This document shows positions 13,250-20,656 of a DNA stretch of 64,000 nt, piece by piece. The number at the start of each line of letters is the position of its first letter. The stretch's first letter is position 1. Under the pieces are notes generated by a model. That model had not been told where the DNA came from. It saw only the letters and a program-made list of their open reading frames with translations, and made no database searches. This DNA comes from Calothrix sp. PCC 7103 (GTDB taxonomy: Bacteria > Cyanobacteriota > Cyanobacteriia > Cyanobacteriales > Nostocaceae). Both the position numbers and the translations under genes were made by a program. The stretch lies in the NCBI RefSeq assembly GCF_000331305.1, contig NZ_KB217478.1, forward strand, positions 3,293,177 to 3,357,176, read 5' to 3'.

Positions 13250-14011
13250 TTATTTTTGAATTTCTTCTCGCAGTTGCTCTAAATCAACATAACTATCAGC
13301 GACATCAATTAAACTTTCGCTTGTCATAGAACTTAAACTTACTACTTCTACCTGTACACCTTGGTATGCAACAGCGTTGACTGCATAAGCTAAATCACCA
13401 TCACCACTTAATAAAATTAAGGTGTCACAATATCTAGCTAATGTCAGCATATCTACTGTTATTTCTACGTCCATGTTGGCTTTTTTAGAACCATCGGGAA
13501 GGTACACTAAGTCCTTTGTGAATACACGATACCCATTGCGACGCATCCATAATAAAAACCCTTGCTGCTTATCATTGCCATTATCAACTGGAGTGTAAAA
13601 ATAAGCACGTAAAAGCTGACGCTGTTTAACTAAACAACGCAGAAGCTTGGTATAGTCAATTTCTAAATTGAGGTGCATTGCCGCGTAAAACAGGTTTGCC
13701 CCATCTATAAATATTGCTACCTTTTCTTCACTTGCCAAACCGCTTGACCTGAACGTGCGACGCTCGCGTCTCAATACTGCTGGAAAATTCTCAGCATTAT
13801 TCAGTCCAATAATTCCAGACATAATTGAATCTTCCATAGCCGACGCTGCACGAACTTTTGGGTAACTAGCTTCATGCTTTATATTACTTGTAATCTCTGC
13901 ATGACTCTCAATCTTTGATTCAATCTCTGAATAAGGCGCCATTTGCTGCGCGTTTGACTGTACTTTTAAAGGTAACTTTTTATTATTCCGAGGTTGTGGA
14001 AGCAACTGCAT
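13250..14011 (-). CDS. NYN/LabA-like (DUF88) protein
   Basis: A 253-residue protein with a variable N-terminal half (about 1-90, polar, no motif recognised) and a C-terminal NYN domain of the LabA/DUF88 family, a PIN-like nuclease fold. Acidic residues expected to bind metal are in VAIFIDGANLFYAA, KANMDVEITVDML and LILLSGDGDLAYAV. LabA-type proteins affect circadian output in cyanobacteria; RNA cleavage is suspected for the fold but not shown for most members. It is convergent with the kinase and follows patX on the same strand after a 1 kb spacer. An inverted repeat lies in its leader. Confidence 0.85.
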   Translation of the reverse strand: MQLLPQPRNNKKLPLKVQSNAQQMAPYSEIESKIESHAEITSNIKHEASYPKVRAASAMEDSIMSGIIGLNNAENFPAVLRRERRTFRSSGLASEEKVAIFIDGANLFYAAMHLNLEIDYTKLLRCLVKQRQLLRAYFYTPVDNGNDKQQGFLLWMRRNGYRVFTKDLVYLPDGSKKANMDVEITVDMLTLARYCDTLILLSGDGDLAYAVNAVAYQGVQVEVVSLSSMTSESLIDVADSYVDLEQLREEIQK

Positions 14012-14067
14012 AATCTTTATTGACGCTCCTAGGCGTATATTTTTTCACTCTTTCAAACGGCAATGGT

Positions 14068-14146
14068 GTAACTATAGCAGTTACAAGTAGCCTTCGCTCC
14101 AATTGACTCGCAGGCACCAAAACTACTAAGTCAATTTCACTGGAGC
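14068..14146 (-). promoter_or_regulatory. Hairpins in the leader of the NYN gene
   Basis: Two hairpins lie 57-135 bases upstream of the NYN start codon. One pairs gtaact with agttac (14068-14084). The larger pairs gctccaattgact (14096-14108) with agtcaat and tggagc (14129-14146), interrupted by a five-base bulge. They could mark a structured 5' untranslated region or a protein-binding site. The function is unknown. Confidence 0.35.
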
Positions 14147-15081
14147 AACAATAAACAGTTCGATTAACATCAACTTAATGATTTTATATTTTCTTTATTT
14201 TTGACTATTTTTTCGCAAAATTACTGTAACTGTTGCAAAATACATAAAAATTTTAATTCTTTTTTTACATAAAAATATCTTATTTTTCTTTACAACCATA
14301 AAAAATCAAGCATGTAGCTTGATAATATCATGTTATAGGCATCTTTACCATGTCAATGCAATAAAATAATATTTTTTAATTATTTCTTAATGTTAAACTT
14401 CGTATGGGGTATGTTTAGGCAAAGATTTTTAGTATAAATAATAACTTACATTCGGTTATCACGTAAATTATTTACGTCTACATTGCTTGCAGTATTAACA
14501 CTTATCCAAAATAGCATTTATTTTGGATATGCACATCTGCTGCATGATGATTTAAGCCAAATGTATATATGCGATTTAGTCCAGCATTTCGGCCGCCAGA
14601 CTAAAGCGTTGTTGATTAGGGACTTGCAAAAATTGAATTCTCCCTATTGTGAAATGGCAAGAAAGCCAGTTTCAGATGTGAGGCGGGTTTTTGATGCCCA
14701 CCCCACAAGAAATGAGTTGCTTATATTTCGGCTAGCCCTAAAAATCTAAATATTTTAGTGTGAACTAATTTATAGCGGTATTGATGCAGTTTCGTTAACT
14801 CAACTCGTGTTGTAGTGAAGTGCAATATACTTGCGAGTAATACGCGCTTTGATTACATTGTCGGTGCCATTCCGACATTATGTGTTCATAAGGTTAACAA
14901 ATCACACACTGCTCGAAATAATTGTAGCGAGCTATTGCGTAAGTAACTTATGTGTTAATTATTTTATTGTTTTAACGTAGCTAGTATTAGCAGTGTTAAT
15001 TTTAACATGCTAGTATATTTTTGGTGTGCATCTAATGCTACAACACGATATTAACCTATTAAGTACAGTTGATGGTACAAC
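14147..15081. other. Spacer between the NYN gene and patX
   Basis: Almost 1 kb without a convincing gene. Two close perfect hairpins stand out: acgtaaa/tttacgt at 14461-14477, and tatccaaaata/tattttggata at 14503-14529 (11-base stem, five-base loop). An 88-codon frame at 14483-14749 overlaps the second hairpin and a degenerate 'gatgcccacccc' repeat, so I do not call it a gene. The stretch could hold a small RNA or the NYN promoter. Confidence 0.4.
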
Positions 15082-15300
15082 TTAGACAGCAGGGAAGGTG
15101 CTGACTAAGTATTCTGTAAAGCTTCGGCGCCCGCTACCACGATGAGGAAAAGGTTGTGGTTGCTTAGGTCTCGCTTTTGATGAAGCTCTTGAGGCTATTG
15201 TGACTGGAGTAACAGACTCAGAGTGCAAGTTGTTTTGGCACTCTAACGATAGAGACCCGAAGAAAAATGTTGTTACCAAAAGTGAGATGACAGTACGCAT
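15082..15300 (-). CDS. patX: PatX-type RGSGR peptide precursor (heterocyst-pattern inhibitor)
   Basis: A 72-residue preprotein with a hydrophobic N-terminus (residues 4-18, TVISLLVTTFFFGSL) that looks like a secretion signal. A polar middle with basic residues and prolines (KARPKQPQPFP) leads to HRGSGRR at 53-59, then a 13-residue tail. RGSGR is the pentapeptide of PatS and HetN that inhibits HetR, the master regulator of heterocyst differentiation. The signal sequence plus C-terminal HRG(S/T)GR layout is that of the PatX family, known across HetR-bearing filamentous cyanobacteria. The RGSGR codons are at 15127-15141. A TCCGGA box lies 57-62 bases upstream of the ATG. Processing and export are inferred from the family. 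No good Shine-Dalgarno sequence is seen; GGAG lies 22 bases off. Confidence 0.82.
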   Translation of the reverse strand: MRTVISLLVTTFFFGSLSLECQNNLHSESVTPVTIASRASSKARPKQPQPFPHRGSGRRSFTEYLVSTFPAV

Positions 15301-15324
15301 AGCAGATGTTTATTTTAGAACTCT

Positions 15325-15362
15325 CCATCCACTAGTACTTAGTTTTATTTAGTGCATCCGGA
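15325..15362 (-). promoter_or_regulatory. DIF-type promoter of patX (TCCGGA box)
   Basis: Reading toward patX on the minus strand, TCCGGA lies at 15362-15357. About 15 bases later comes TAAGTACTAG, which could serve as the -10 region, putting a start site around 15325-15330. In Anabaena, promoters induced in differentiating cells and dependent on HetR (DIF+ class) carry TCCGGA around -35. The match of motif, spacing and gene product is the argument; transcription was not measured. Confidence 0.6.
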
Positions 15363-15404
15363 TGATTCAAAAAAAGTATTGTTTTTTACTTCGACAAAAA
15401 GTTG

Positions 15405-17192
15405 TTATTTTTCTATATGTTCTACTAGTAACCAGTTACCTGCTGAGTTATAACGACCCTGAAGCTGAAGTTGCTCACCGTTTACAAGCTTTTCAAGTGT
15501 CAAATCAATATGTGGATGTAAAGTCACAAGCTGCCAAGTTTGTCCTTCGTATTCAGATGGTGTTAAAACGGTAAATGCGTAATCTTGCTGACCATAAAAA
15601 TGAAAAGTTCCAACACATGAAATATTTATACGTGATTTTACTGAATTTATATGTAAGTCTAAATACTGGGATATATCAAGATTGGGACAAATACCAGTGG
15701 TTGGATAAGCTGTATGATTGACTGTATAATATTTTTGCCATTTTAACCATTCAGAATGTTCGAGAGTTAAGTTAAAAAATGGCACAATTAAAGAAGGTAA
15801 ATGTGAATTTTCGATTAAGGCATCTTGCAATTTTTCTACGTGTAAATTCTTGGGTGATTGATTATATTCAATACATAATGCTGCTGCCATACCTACAGCT
15901 TGACCAATATTCATAACAACAGGTTGGAGCCGAGTGGCGCCCGAAGCAATATGAGATACTGATATATTTTTTTCACAGGCAAAAAAACCATCGATGTATT
16001 CACTTACCAAACAACGATAAGGAATAGTAAAGGGTGTCCCTGTCCAACGTCCACCCCAACGAATCGATTTAGGTTGTAAAGGAAACTCTATACCCGGATA
16101 ATGATGGTCATTAGCATAATTACCTATGGCAATTGCATCTTTATGTAGCGGTGCTGCATTACCACCGTTCCTCGGTAATATATCTTGTTCGCGCACCGTC
16201 GTTATACCTATTAAACGACGACTCTCGCGATAGTAAGGATGTAATGCGAAACTTGTAGAGATCGAATTAATACGGTCTTCTCTACATTCAGGGAAGACGT
16301 TTGCTGCCAATCCGTAACGGCGCCCTAGTTGTGATTGAATAAAATGGGCGAAATTTTGACTATGCCAAAAACATTCCTGTAAAAATTCCTGCCGCTTTGC
16401 TTCTGATTCGATTAATCTGCCTACCTCTACACCCCAATCATTACCTTGCTGGGGCCAGTTAATCATAAATCGATTTCCTGGTAAGCGCCCATAATTCATA
16501 AACTTATCTGCACCATAATTATCCCAGGCGCCAATAAATAACGATTCATCATAATTAGGTGCTTTTGGTATTTCTGGAGCAGAGTCGCCAAAATCTTGCA
16601 TGACTACTACCCAAGTTGGCGCCTGTACAGGATATTTTTTAGTGAGAGAATTATATTCAATAGGGGCACTTATCTCACCAAATTCTGATTGAAGTTCCCA
16701 ACCCCAACGGTGCGGTATTTCTGCTAAAGCTAATAAATCACCTAGTTCAGTACCATCAATGGTTATTTTGGCATGAACAGTAAAATCTGCAAATTTCACA
16801 CCTGTAACGCAGTTACCTTGACGCATTACCTCTAAAGGTATATATCCAGAAATCCACTGTAAATTTGGTAATGCATTCACCCAGTCAGCAAATATCTGGG
16901 CACCGATGCGTGGTTCATAACTAAAAAAGCTCACCCAACTATTGTCTAATCCTCCAGGTTGCCGAGAGCGCAACTCACTTAAAAACTCACCCCACAAACC
17001 CGTTTGAAATGCTGCAAGCTCGTTACCATCAGGCGCCGTAACTCCTGCACTAGTCAGCATACCCCCCAGCCAAGTAAATTCACTCACTAATACTACTTTG
17101 GCACCGAGCCTTGCAGCAGTAATTGCTGCTGCGGTTCCACCTGTTCCACCACCAACGACCAATACATCTGTTGTATATACTTGATTATTCAT
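15405..17192 (-). CDS. FAD-dependent oxidoreductase (FAD_oxidored family)
   Basis: A 595-residue flavoprotein. The N-terminal dinucleotide fold is TDVLVVGGGTGGTAAAITAA with a Glu-containing second strand (VVLVSEFTWLGGMLT). A second conserved block, AKITIDGTELGDLLALAEI, and the later region HIASGATRLQPVVMNIGQAVGMAAALC complete the FAD site. The C-terminal ~100 residues form a separate part without a motif I recognise. Family members are annotated loosely (some as xanthan-lyase-like), with no defined substrate. No signal peptide is seen, so it should be cytosolic. It is divergent from the small secreted protein gene with about 140 bases between starts. Its stop lies 43 bases from the patX promoter box. 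Confidence 0.85.
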   Translation of the reverse strand: MNNQVYTTDVLVVGGGTGGTAAAITAARLGAKVVLVSEFTWLGGMLTSAGVTAPDGNELAAFQTGLWGEFLSELRSRQPGGLDNSWVSFFSYEPRIGAQIFADWVNALPNLQWISGYIPLEVMRQGNCVTGVKFADFTVHAKITIDGTELGDLLALAEIPHRWGWELQSEFGEISAPIEYNSLTKKYPVQAPTWVVVMQDFGDSAPEIPKAPNYDESLFIGAWDNYGADKFMNYGRLPGNRFMINWPQQGNDWGVEVGRLIESEAKRQEFLQECFWHSQNFAHFIQSQLGRRYGLAANVFPECREDRINSISTSFALHPYYRESRRLIGITTVREQDILPRNGGNAAPLHKDAIAIGNYANDHHYPGIEFPLQPKSIRWGGRWTGTPFTIPYRCLVSEYIDGFFACEKNISVSHIASGATRLQPVVMNIGQAVGMAAALCIEYNQSPKNLHVEKLQDALIENSHLPSLIVPFFNLTLEHSEWLKWQKYYTVNHTAYPTTGICPNLDISQYLDLHINSVKSRINISCVGTFHFYGQQDYAFTVLTPSEYEGQTWQLVTLHPHIDLTLEKLVNGEQLQLQGRYNSAGNWLLVEHIEK

Positions 17193-18301: not shown

Positions 18302-20656
18302 ATGGAGCAAGGACTAAGAGTATTAATACAGTTGGTGCTTGAATTTGCACCCGTAGTAGCAAATTTGGTACAAAAAAGGAACGAAGCAAGTTCAATGCTT
18401 GCGAAACTTCAACCACCGAATGAAGTTAAAGAGTTTCTTGAAGTTATAAATAATTCGGTTGTAGAGAGTAATGCTTCGGAATTAGCACAAGTTGAGTATC
18501 AACGGGAAAAGACAATTCAGCAGCAACTAGCTGTACATAACCGTCAAACTCAGTTGTATATAGCTAAGTACGAACGAGAAACTACACTAAAGTTACCTGA
18601 AGTCAACCGTATACTAGATAGTTGGCCCCTGCGGTTATATCCATCGCAAATTTTGGAGTCTCATAAAGATAATACAGTCAGGACTCCGCTAAAAATATTT
18701 GTGGCGCCACCCAAGATTCTATTTGATAAGTTTGATACTCGTGAAGGAGATATTTCTGAGATTGAACCGATGTTAGCAGAGGGTTTGCGTGATTTTTTGA
18801 ATTGCTATTACTCGCTGCATAACCCAGTTCGTCCAACTGAATTTTTAGCAGGCGCCTGGTATAGTAAAAGGTTTCATAGCGAATCGAGCATTAAAGCTTT
18901 GTTTGGAATGTTGAAATCGGAGCCGATACTTATATTAGAATCGGAAACTGACGGAGATTATATAAATTTTCGTATTGGATATTGGGGTTTAGGTCAAGAC
19001 AACTATTATTACAAAACTATTTCAAGAATATCTTACAGAGATATTGTTTATCAGTCGGCAAAAAACCGCGCCCTACAGTGGAGGCAAATCCGCGATGAAT
19101 TGATACTTCTGGGGGAAGACATAGATGAAATAAATCAAATGGGGGGAGATAACGTCTACAATTTAGACCTTTTAGAGCGCGAAAAAAAATGGAAAGATAA
19201 GGGAGTTGATACTAGTAAAATTGAACTAAAGTATCGAGTTAATCGCCAAGATTTTGAAAAGTTGTGTCAGGTGCTAACTAATTGTCACTGTTTGGTTGCT
19301 AGCTGGATATCTGATGTATATCACTTGATTCATCACGATGTTTCGCCACTGTTACCCGAATTATTGCCTTCTTTAGTAGAAGATGGTATTGATTTTCAAT
19401 CAGTAGGCGCCATTGCCGAAGGATACAAACAAGTTTATCAGGCATTGGAAAATGAACGAGGGCATTGGGTTCCGGAATTAGCATTACAATTGGCGAATAG
19501 TTTATCGGGCTTAAATGACCCAACTTGGGCAAGCGAACAAGTAAGTTATTCACTCGAAGCTTGGTTACAACTCCATCAAATTTCCCCGAAAGAGACTAGT
19601 AATCCGCTAACCGCAATGTTAAACGCAGTACGAATTGAAGATGAAAAATATATTAGTAATCTCAAAACTTATTTTACTGCGATTGGAGACTTGCCCAATC
19701 TTAATTTAGTGGAGGAAATGCTTTCGGCAATTAATGACTTAAAAAAGCTGCGTTCCTCTGAATATGCATACGTCGTCAATACTCTTACTGGACACGCTGA
19801 AAAAGTTACATCCGTTGTTGTTAGTCCTGATGGTGAAACAATTGTGAGTGGATGTGCTGACAAAACGGTGAAAGTGTGGAACCTTCACACCGGCAAAGTC
19901 ATTCGTACTATTTCAGGACATTCAGGTGAAATATCTTCTGTCGCAGTTAGTCCAGATGGCACCTTTTTAGCAGTAGGGATTAGTGATACACCTCGTAGTA
20001 ATGTTAAGGTTTGGCACCTTCAAACAGGCAAATTAATTCATACACTGCTTGGACACAACAAACCCGTTAACGTCGTAAGCATTAGTCCCGACGGTCAAAT
20101 ACTTGCTAGTGGCAGTAATAAAATCAAAATTTGGAACTTGCAAAAAGGAGATAGAGTTTGCACGCTTTGGCATTCATCGGCAGTTAACGCGACTGCTATT
20201 ACTTCCGATGGCACAATTTTAGTTAGTGGTACCAGCGACAACAAAATAAAACTTTGGAATCCTCAAACAGGTGAACCACTGCGTACCTTTATGGGACATG
20301 TGGGAGAAGTTAAAGCTTTAGCACTGCATCCAAACGGACAAATCTTAGTTAGCGGTAGTACAGACTGCACCATTAAAGTATGGGATTTAAACTCTGGTAA
20401 GATATTACACAATTTAATCGAACATACTAGCGAAGTAAGAAGTCTTGCTATTAGTCGCGATGGCAAATTAATTATCAGTGGAAGCAGTGATAAAACTATT
20501 AAAATTTGGCACTTACCATCGGGTGAATTACTGCAAACTCTTACCGGACATTTGGGCGCCATTAACTCTATCGCAATTACTCCTGATGACCGCTGTATAG
20601 TTAGTGGCTGTTCAGACAAAACCATCAAAATTTGGCAATTAACCGAAGATTCTTAA
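18302..20656 (+). CDS. WD40-repeat protein with unrecognised N-terminal domain
   Basis: A 784-residue protein. The last ~290 residues hold seven WD40 repeats, each ending in a K-(V/I)-W-x-(L/P) block (VKVWNL, VKVWHL, IKIWNL, IKLWNP, IKVWDL, IKIWHL, IKIWQL), enough for one closed propeller. The first ~490 residues carry no domain I can name. They begin with a hydrophobic helix (LIQLVLEFAPVVANLV), then a Gln/Glu-rich coiled stretch (about 55-100). A middle part has aromatic-rich segments (FLAGAWYSKRF, FRIGYWGLGQDNYYY). There is no kinase, NACHT or caspase motif, though these often precede WD40 in cyanobacteria. A scaffold or sensor role is inference. It stands alone on the + strand. Confidence 0.85.
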   Translation: MEQGLRVLIQLVLEFAPVVANLVQKRNEASSMLAKLQPPNEVKEFLEVINNSVVESNASELAQVEYQREKTIQQQLAVHNRQTQLYIAKYERETTLKLPEVNRILDSWPLRLYPSQILESHKDNTVRTPLKIFVAPPKILFDKFDTREGDISEIEPMLAEGLRDFLNCYYSLHNPVRPTEFLAGAWYSKRFHSESSIKALFGMLKSEPILILESETDGDYINFRIGYWGLGQDNYYYKTISRISYRDIVYQSAKNRALQWRQIRDELILLGEDIDEINQMGGDNVYNLDLLEREKKWKDKGVDTSKIELKYRVNRQDFEKLCQVLTNCHCLVASWISDVYHLIHHDVSPLLPELLPSLVEDGIDFQSVGAIAEGYKQVYQALENERGHWVPELALQLANSLSGLNDPTWASEQVSYSLEAWLQLHQISPKETSNPLTAMLNAVRIEDEKYISNLKTYFTAIGDLPNLNLVEEMLSAINDLKKLRSSEYAYVVNTLTGHAEKVTSVVVSPDGETIVSGCADKTVKVWNLHTGKVIRTISGHSGEISSVAVSPDGTFLAVGISDTPRSNVKVWHLQTGKLIHTLLGHNKPVNVVSISPDGQILASGSNKIKIWNLQKGDRVCTLWHSSAVNATAITSDGTILVSGTSDNKIKLWNPQTGEPLRTFMGHVGEVKALALHPNGQILVSGSTDCTIKVWDLNSGKILHNLIEHTSEVRSLAISRDGKLIISGSSDKTIKIWHLPSGELLQTLTGHLGAINSIAITPDDRCIVSGCSDKTIKIWQLTEDS

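Follow-up and report, generated by a model that had tools for sequence, protein, structure and literature searches.

The window analysed here, a 64,000-nucleotide stretch of the genome of Calothrix sp. PCC 7103, carries on its minus strand a short gene that is, judging from its sequence, an ordinary ortholog of patX; it confirms known biology and represents no new kind of gene. Our essential contention is that this gene is driven by NtcA, HetR and HetZ, and that its product is exported and trimmed to an HRGSGR peptide that inhibits HetR. Taken as one joint explanation, we hold this to be very probable (roughly 95%). Membership of the PatX family, selection on the reading frame, the promoter elements and the presence of a HetR with its binding residues are established here; expression, export, processing and inhibition of HetR would apply to the window protein by analogy with work on Anabaena/Nostoc PCC 7120.

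The coding sequence occupies positions 15082..15300 (minus strand; 72 amino acids plus stop, with an ATG start) and the frame, read from 15300 to 15082, translates to MRTVISLLVTTFFFGSLSLECQNNLHSESVTPVTIASRASSKARPKQPQPFPHRGSGRRSFTEYLVSTFPAV. Its RGSGR codons (15141..15127, CGT GGT AGC GGG CGC) stand in the context HRGSGRR, and with the preceding histidine codon they form the hexapeptide (15127..15144, minus strand) that is the presumed HetR ligand; the preceding residue is histidine in 26 of 35 members from the same GTDB family and tyrosine in nine. The first-pass annotation had described a 72-residue frame with HRGSGRR near its C-terminus and RGSGR codons at 15127-15141, and on re-reading the open frame agrees to the base and the codons lie at the same positions. 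Fourteen residues follow the pentapeptide, the middle of the protein contains proline, and codons 3-19 (15244..15294, minus strand) encode a hydrophobic N-terminal stretch that resembles a signal peptide by hydropathy, the only measure by which export was judged, with a mean Kyte-Doolittle value of 1.86 for residues 3-19 against -0.68 for residues 21-72.

The RGSGR codons by themselves are not above chance in this genome: the degenerate RG[S/T]GR codon pattern has 117 matches against 196 for the same pattern reversed, and the form of the RGSGR pattern with AGY serine has 26 against 38 for its control. What does exceed chance is the conserved combination of the frame with TCCGGA at a fixed distance. 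The pattern counts would be compatible with a chance frame that happens to contain a chance RGSGR, but we regard this as practically inconceivable and rule it out on the evidence of a match to a curated family, selection on the frame, and a promoter and neighbouring gene that are conserved across many genomes.

The curated NCBIfam model for the heterocyst-inhibiting protein PatX (NF047413.1) matches residues 1-60 of the 72-amino acid protein with 52.7 bits, above its cut-off of 30, which bears out the PatX-type identity that had been proposed at the outset. It had also been suggested that automated annotation could miss the gene or call it hypothetical; this expectation does not stand, since the curated model catches the gene and annotation using NF047413.1 would therefore name it. 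The model scores over its cut-off in 43 of 60 genomes and in none of 14 control genomes, and 46 of the 60 have a match at E up to 0.01. Direct protein searching finds relatives in 30 of the 60, Calothrix sp. PCC 7103 included, and a PatX scan of the named genome collection returns six loci, all in Calothrix or Dulcicalothrix records. In G023, a family genome with a HetR_C match, the PatX model finds nothing at E up to 0.01. Pfam gives nothing above cut-off for the window protein (the only match, PsbI at E 0.15, is below its own cut-off) and PHROGs gives no match. When the gene is compared with seven relatives, dN (0.012-0.48) is lower than dS (0.10-1.44) and third codon positions change most in every pair, although larger distances still change many residues, as with G001, where 31 of 42 changed codons alter the amino acid. 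This pattern of substitution indicates that selection acts on the whole patX frame. Conservation outside the pentapeptide, on which the first-pass annotation had staked its reading, is evident in the direct-search relatives, in the alignment of PatX rows and in dN < dS; together with PatX identity and the presence of hetR, it supports the original view of the gene as encoding a heterocyst-pattern signal or a related HetR-controlled signal.

PatX was reportedly first described in a 2018 paper. The window protein has in common with it a hydrophobic N-terminus, a proline-containing middle, HRGSGR near the C-terminus and a DIF1 promoter, whereas the PatX of PCC 7120 is reported to have RGTGR in place of RGSGR (PMC7761841). 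The 'alternative PatS' of Mastigocladus has been equated with PatX (PMC7761841), and 'alternative PatS' is described as having prolines before H/Y-RGSGR (PMC5812504). PatS (model NF047415.1) shares RGSGR with the window protein and, in PCC 7120, is likewise reported to have a DIF1 promoter (PMC7377430). However, the PatS of PCC 7120 is given as 17 amino acids (PMC12756182) and ends with RGSGR, while the window protein has 72, begins with a hydrophobic stretch and continues beyond the pentapeptide. Identity as PatS is ruled out by this length, by the 14 residues after RGSGR and by the lack of any match to the PatS model at E up to 1. HetN resembles short-chain dehydrogenases, and identity as HetN is ruled out by the lack of a short-chain dehydrogenase Pfam match. 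In some strains HetN is reported to carry RGSGR also (PMC5812504), and by eye we saw no RGSGR-bearing short-chain dehydrogenase in 32 hand-picked stretches (33 pattern sites) and two additional sites. These stretches were picked from 100 of the 117 RG[S/T]GR places; the TCN-serine and ACN-threonine forms among the other 17 lay outside the inspection.

Upstream sequences were compared in 47 PatX rows from 43 genomes, aligned by start codon with the first ATG of each frame taken as the start; a 25-amino acid chance frame in G014 and an empty row (G046b) were left out, and the rows represent 46 loci because two of them share locus L076. The DIF1 box of the window gene, TCCGGA at 15357..15362 (minus strand), lies 57-62 nt before the ATG, exactly where the first-pass annotation had placed it, and this distance is conserved in the family. 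The distance from the start of TCCGGA to the start codon is 61-64 nt in 37 of the 47 rows; in the GTDB family 34 of the 35 rows have the box, at 62-63 nt, the exception being G025 with TCCGGG. TCCGGA is lacking at this place in ten rows. In eight of them, G025 and seven from outside the family (five of these with TCCTGA), a box with one mismatch occurs 58-64 nt upstream, and neither form is found in the range inspected for G043 and for G036a, whose start is probably set too far upstream. Altogether, the 46 loci contain 53 TCCGGA in 155,551 bases; the window contains two against 5.65 expected, making the hexamer rarer than expected, and the second of these, at 19471, is inside a 784-amino acid frame (18302-20656).

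The consensus for NtcA is GTA-N8-TAC, and a box of this type at 15376..15389 (minus strand), overlooked in the first-pass annotation, is exact in 28 of the 35 family members, has one mismatch in six and is missing in G019, while no exact copy occurs within 200 nt upstream in any of the 12 rows from outside the family. Its restriction to the family in exact form suggests nitrogen control of patX. A plausible -10 element had been noted earlier also; candidates do occur downstream of TCCGGA but they are weak, the first being TACTAG (15332..15337, minus strand), a possible -10 assigned from the alignment and separated from the DIF1 box by a 19-nt spacer, and the alternative being TAAGTA (15336..15341, minus strand), with a spacer of 16 nt. 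From the predicted transcription start to the ATG there is a conserved stretch (15301..15326, minus strand), in which 17 of 26 columns are at least 91% identical among 34 family members; to judge by this alignment, the conservation of these 26 nt exceeds what a promoter needs. Rfam has nothing at gathering score across 14000-16000, and a generic scan for sigma-70 promoters and terminators over 14900-15450 gives no minus-strand promoter, no terminator and one plus-strand promoter-like site.

The upstream neighbour of patX (15405..17192, minus strand) is an FAD-dependent oxidoreductase (PF12831, 328 bits). Using tblastn, a relative of this gene is found upstream of patX in 38 of the 47 rows. In 37 of these it lies 68-145 nt from the patX start, and in the remaining one, whose locus also supplies another row, 923 nt. 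Proximity to hetR is more variable. By a count of coordinates, six genomes from outside the family have a HetR_C match within 1.5 kb of the PatX match, and among the 35 family genomes that have PatX such a match lies within 15 kb of it in 13; hetR is near patX in none of the seven genomes of the window's genus, where the two genes are either 2-4 Mb apart on one contig (three genomes, among them Calothrix sp. PCC 7103 with 2.6 Mb) or on different contigs (four). Of the two arrangements, the FAD-patX pairing is thus the more stable, and patX keeps this neighbour despite its great distance from hetR; their adjacency may result from shared history or from read-through.

The first-pass annotation had made its reading depend on the presence of hetR, and a single HetR_C match (162.5 bits) is present in the genome. 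This HetR, of 299 amino acids, keeps R223, E253, E254, D256, D270 and D278, residues whose mutation is reported to weaken or abolish PatS6 binding (PMC4649674). The genome also has nifH over cut-off, although the nifH model also responds weakly in all 14 control genomes, exceeding its cut-off in three of them. With hetR, its intact peptide-binding residues and nifH, the organism therefore has, so far as tested, what the published pathway needs, and the sequence elements of the PatX-HetR module, its NtcA-type and DIF1 boxes included, are present in a large Calothrix-type genome. A second nifH-like set consists of three minus-strand pieces (G000:C7:2257286-2257717, 2378062-2378226 and 2473177-2473422; L172-L174, in the same genome, G000) that match profile positions 130-273, 78-133 and 1-81 and lie about 95-120 kb apart in gene order; apparently two large inserts interrupt a second nifH. 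At the break between its middle and C-terminal pieces lies a 13-nt repeat, GGCGGTTTCGCTA, and a short repeat in this position recalls heterocyst excision elements.

The mechanism that we favour would begin with nitrogen shortage, when the NtcA/HetR/HetZ circuit would turn patX on in prospective heterocysts by way of the NtcA-type box and the DIF1 promoter. The hydrophobic N-terminus would export PatX, trimming would occur outside the cytosol, and the HRGSGR so released would bind the hood domain of HetR and remove HetR from DNA, so that neighbouring cells would not differentiate. In Nostoc PCC 7120, a Sec signal is reported to direct the export of PatX and PatP to process the protein, and HRGTGR is reported to bind HetR (Kd 88 nM), releasing it from DNA (PMC12756182). 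Both patX and patS are described as having DIF1 promoters from which they are induced 6-8 h after nitrogen step-down (PMC7761841), and the DIF1 promoter of patX as dependent on hetZ (PMC7377430). The patX mutant of PCC 7120 is also reported to have a normal pattern without combined nitrogen (PMC7761841), and so the role of PatX in spacing may be minor.

A conventional PatS is not apparent in the genus, within the limits of the pattern used. The E-RGSGR-stop pattern has a single match in Calothrix sp. PCC 7103 and this reads ERGRGS-stop. Among 60 genomes, our own included, the PatS ending D/E-RGSGR-stop with AGY serine occurs at 27 sites in 21 genomes, against eight for the reversed control, and it has no match in the seven genus genomes or in G025; among the other family genomes in this set it is present in 18 of 29. 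Of twenty such sites that were inspected, some have short, PatS-like frames that begin with a hydrophobic stretch, and others look like chance. The absence of PatS from the genus holds for this ending with AGY serine only, as TCN serine or another preceding residue would escape it.

While the window's patX is correct and ordinary, the part worth following is a 37-amino acid peptide with two RGSGR units, MMIFFDCERGSGRVDAVMFSSDDRGSGRINTIMNTNS, which lies outside the window at G000:C7:7860027-7860137 (L107, L114) and was found in one of the 32 stretches selected by eye among the RG[S/T]GR matches. It has relatives in all seven genus genomes examined, the window's included, and four other genomes matched only at E 0.18-0.55 in the first search. 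A second genus has four units in G025 (L120) and three each in G082 (L155) and G083 (L154). RGSGR is invariant in both units across a nine-row alignment, one row of which was joined by hand. Applied to 217 family genomes, a profile of the tandem peptide matches 14 at E up to 0.01; seven belong to the genus, three to the second genus and four are something else: G086, G087 and G146 have frames with one motif only, and G224 has a repeat within a long frame. The PatS model gives the peptide 24.0 bits, below the cut-off of 30. Codon evidence for the frame is weak: most changed codons are non-synonymous, though the RGSGR units stand.

At 154-156 nt upstream of the tandem frame there is TCCGGA in four of the seven genus genomes, TCCTGA in our own, TCCGGG in G003 and TCCGGT in G001, and a conserved TGTAAT follows this DIF1-like box in all seven; the inexact box in our own genome counts against the promoter reading there. 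None of the seven has GTA-N8-TAC in the 250 nt upstream of the frame, and there is no TCCGGA within 800 nt upstream in G025, G082 and G083. Among the papers listed, which cover few subscription papers, titles and the beginnings of abstracts contain no description of such a peptide. We tentatively propose, at somewhat less than even odds, that the genus uses PatX beside a cytosolic 'multi-warhead' tandem-RGSGR PatS that replaced the single-motif PatS. One transcript from the DIF1-like promoter would then yield several HetR-binding peptides after cleavage, so that changes in the number of repeats could alter how strong lateral inhibition is in the course of evolution. If real, the peptide would amount to a bacterial morphogen whose dose varies in nature, and related strains could be used to test how heterocyst spacing depends on the dose of inhibitor.

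These observations bear on what PatX itself might do, because if another RGSGR peptide does the spacing then the window gene could be a true PatX ortholog whose main role in the genus is the restraint of HetR in vegetative growth, or the control of necridia or hormogonia. We think this rather unlikely. In its favour, the loss of PatX in PCC 7120 is reported to show in nitrogen-replete medium and to be masked by PatS without nitrogen (PMC7761841), PatX is described as older than heterocysts (PMC12756182), and the second RGSGR peptide, with its two units, recurs throughout the genus genomes examined. Against it stands the distribution of the exact NtcA-type box (28 of the 35 family rows, none of the 12 others), which suggests nitrogen control.

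Several other frames carry the motif. A mini-frame, MIKKIFTLLSHRGSGRFQV, at G000:C12:696784-696858 (L163, L166-L171) has relatives in six of the seven genus genomes, our own included, with RGSGR kept in five and RGSGK in G005; the sole DIF-type match in the stretch read around it (TCCTGA) is downstream of the frame. Locus L074 (G043:C156) has a PatX-model match in a frame from 2004, of 201 amino acids with 11 RGSGR copies, in a genome with no HetR_C match. At L156 (G224:C148), a 15-residue unit with RGTGR, EEDERGTGRVNSILG, occurs four times in tandem within a long open frame. Finally, a protein that by eye is HEAT-repeat-like (L106, G000:C7:6753310-6754523) has SRGSGRRS at the end of its frame.
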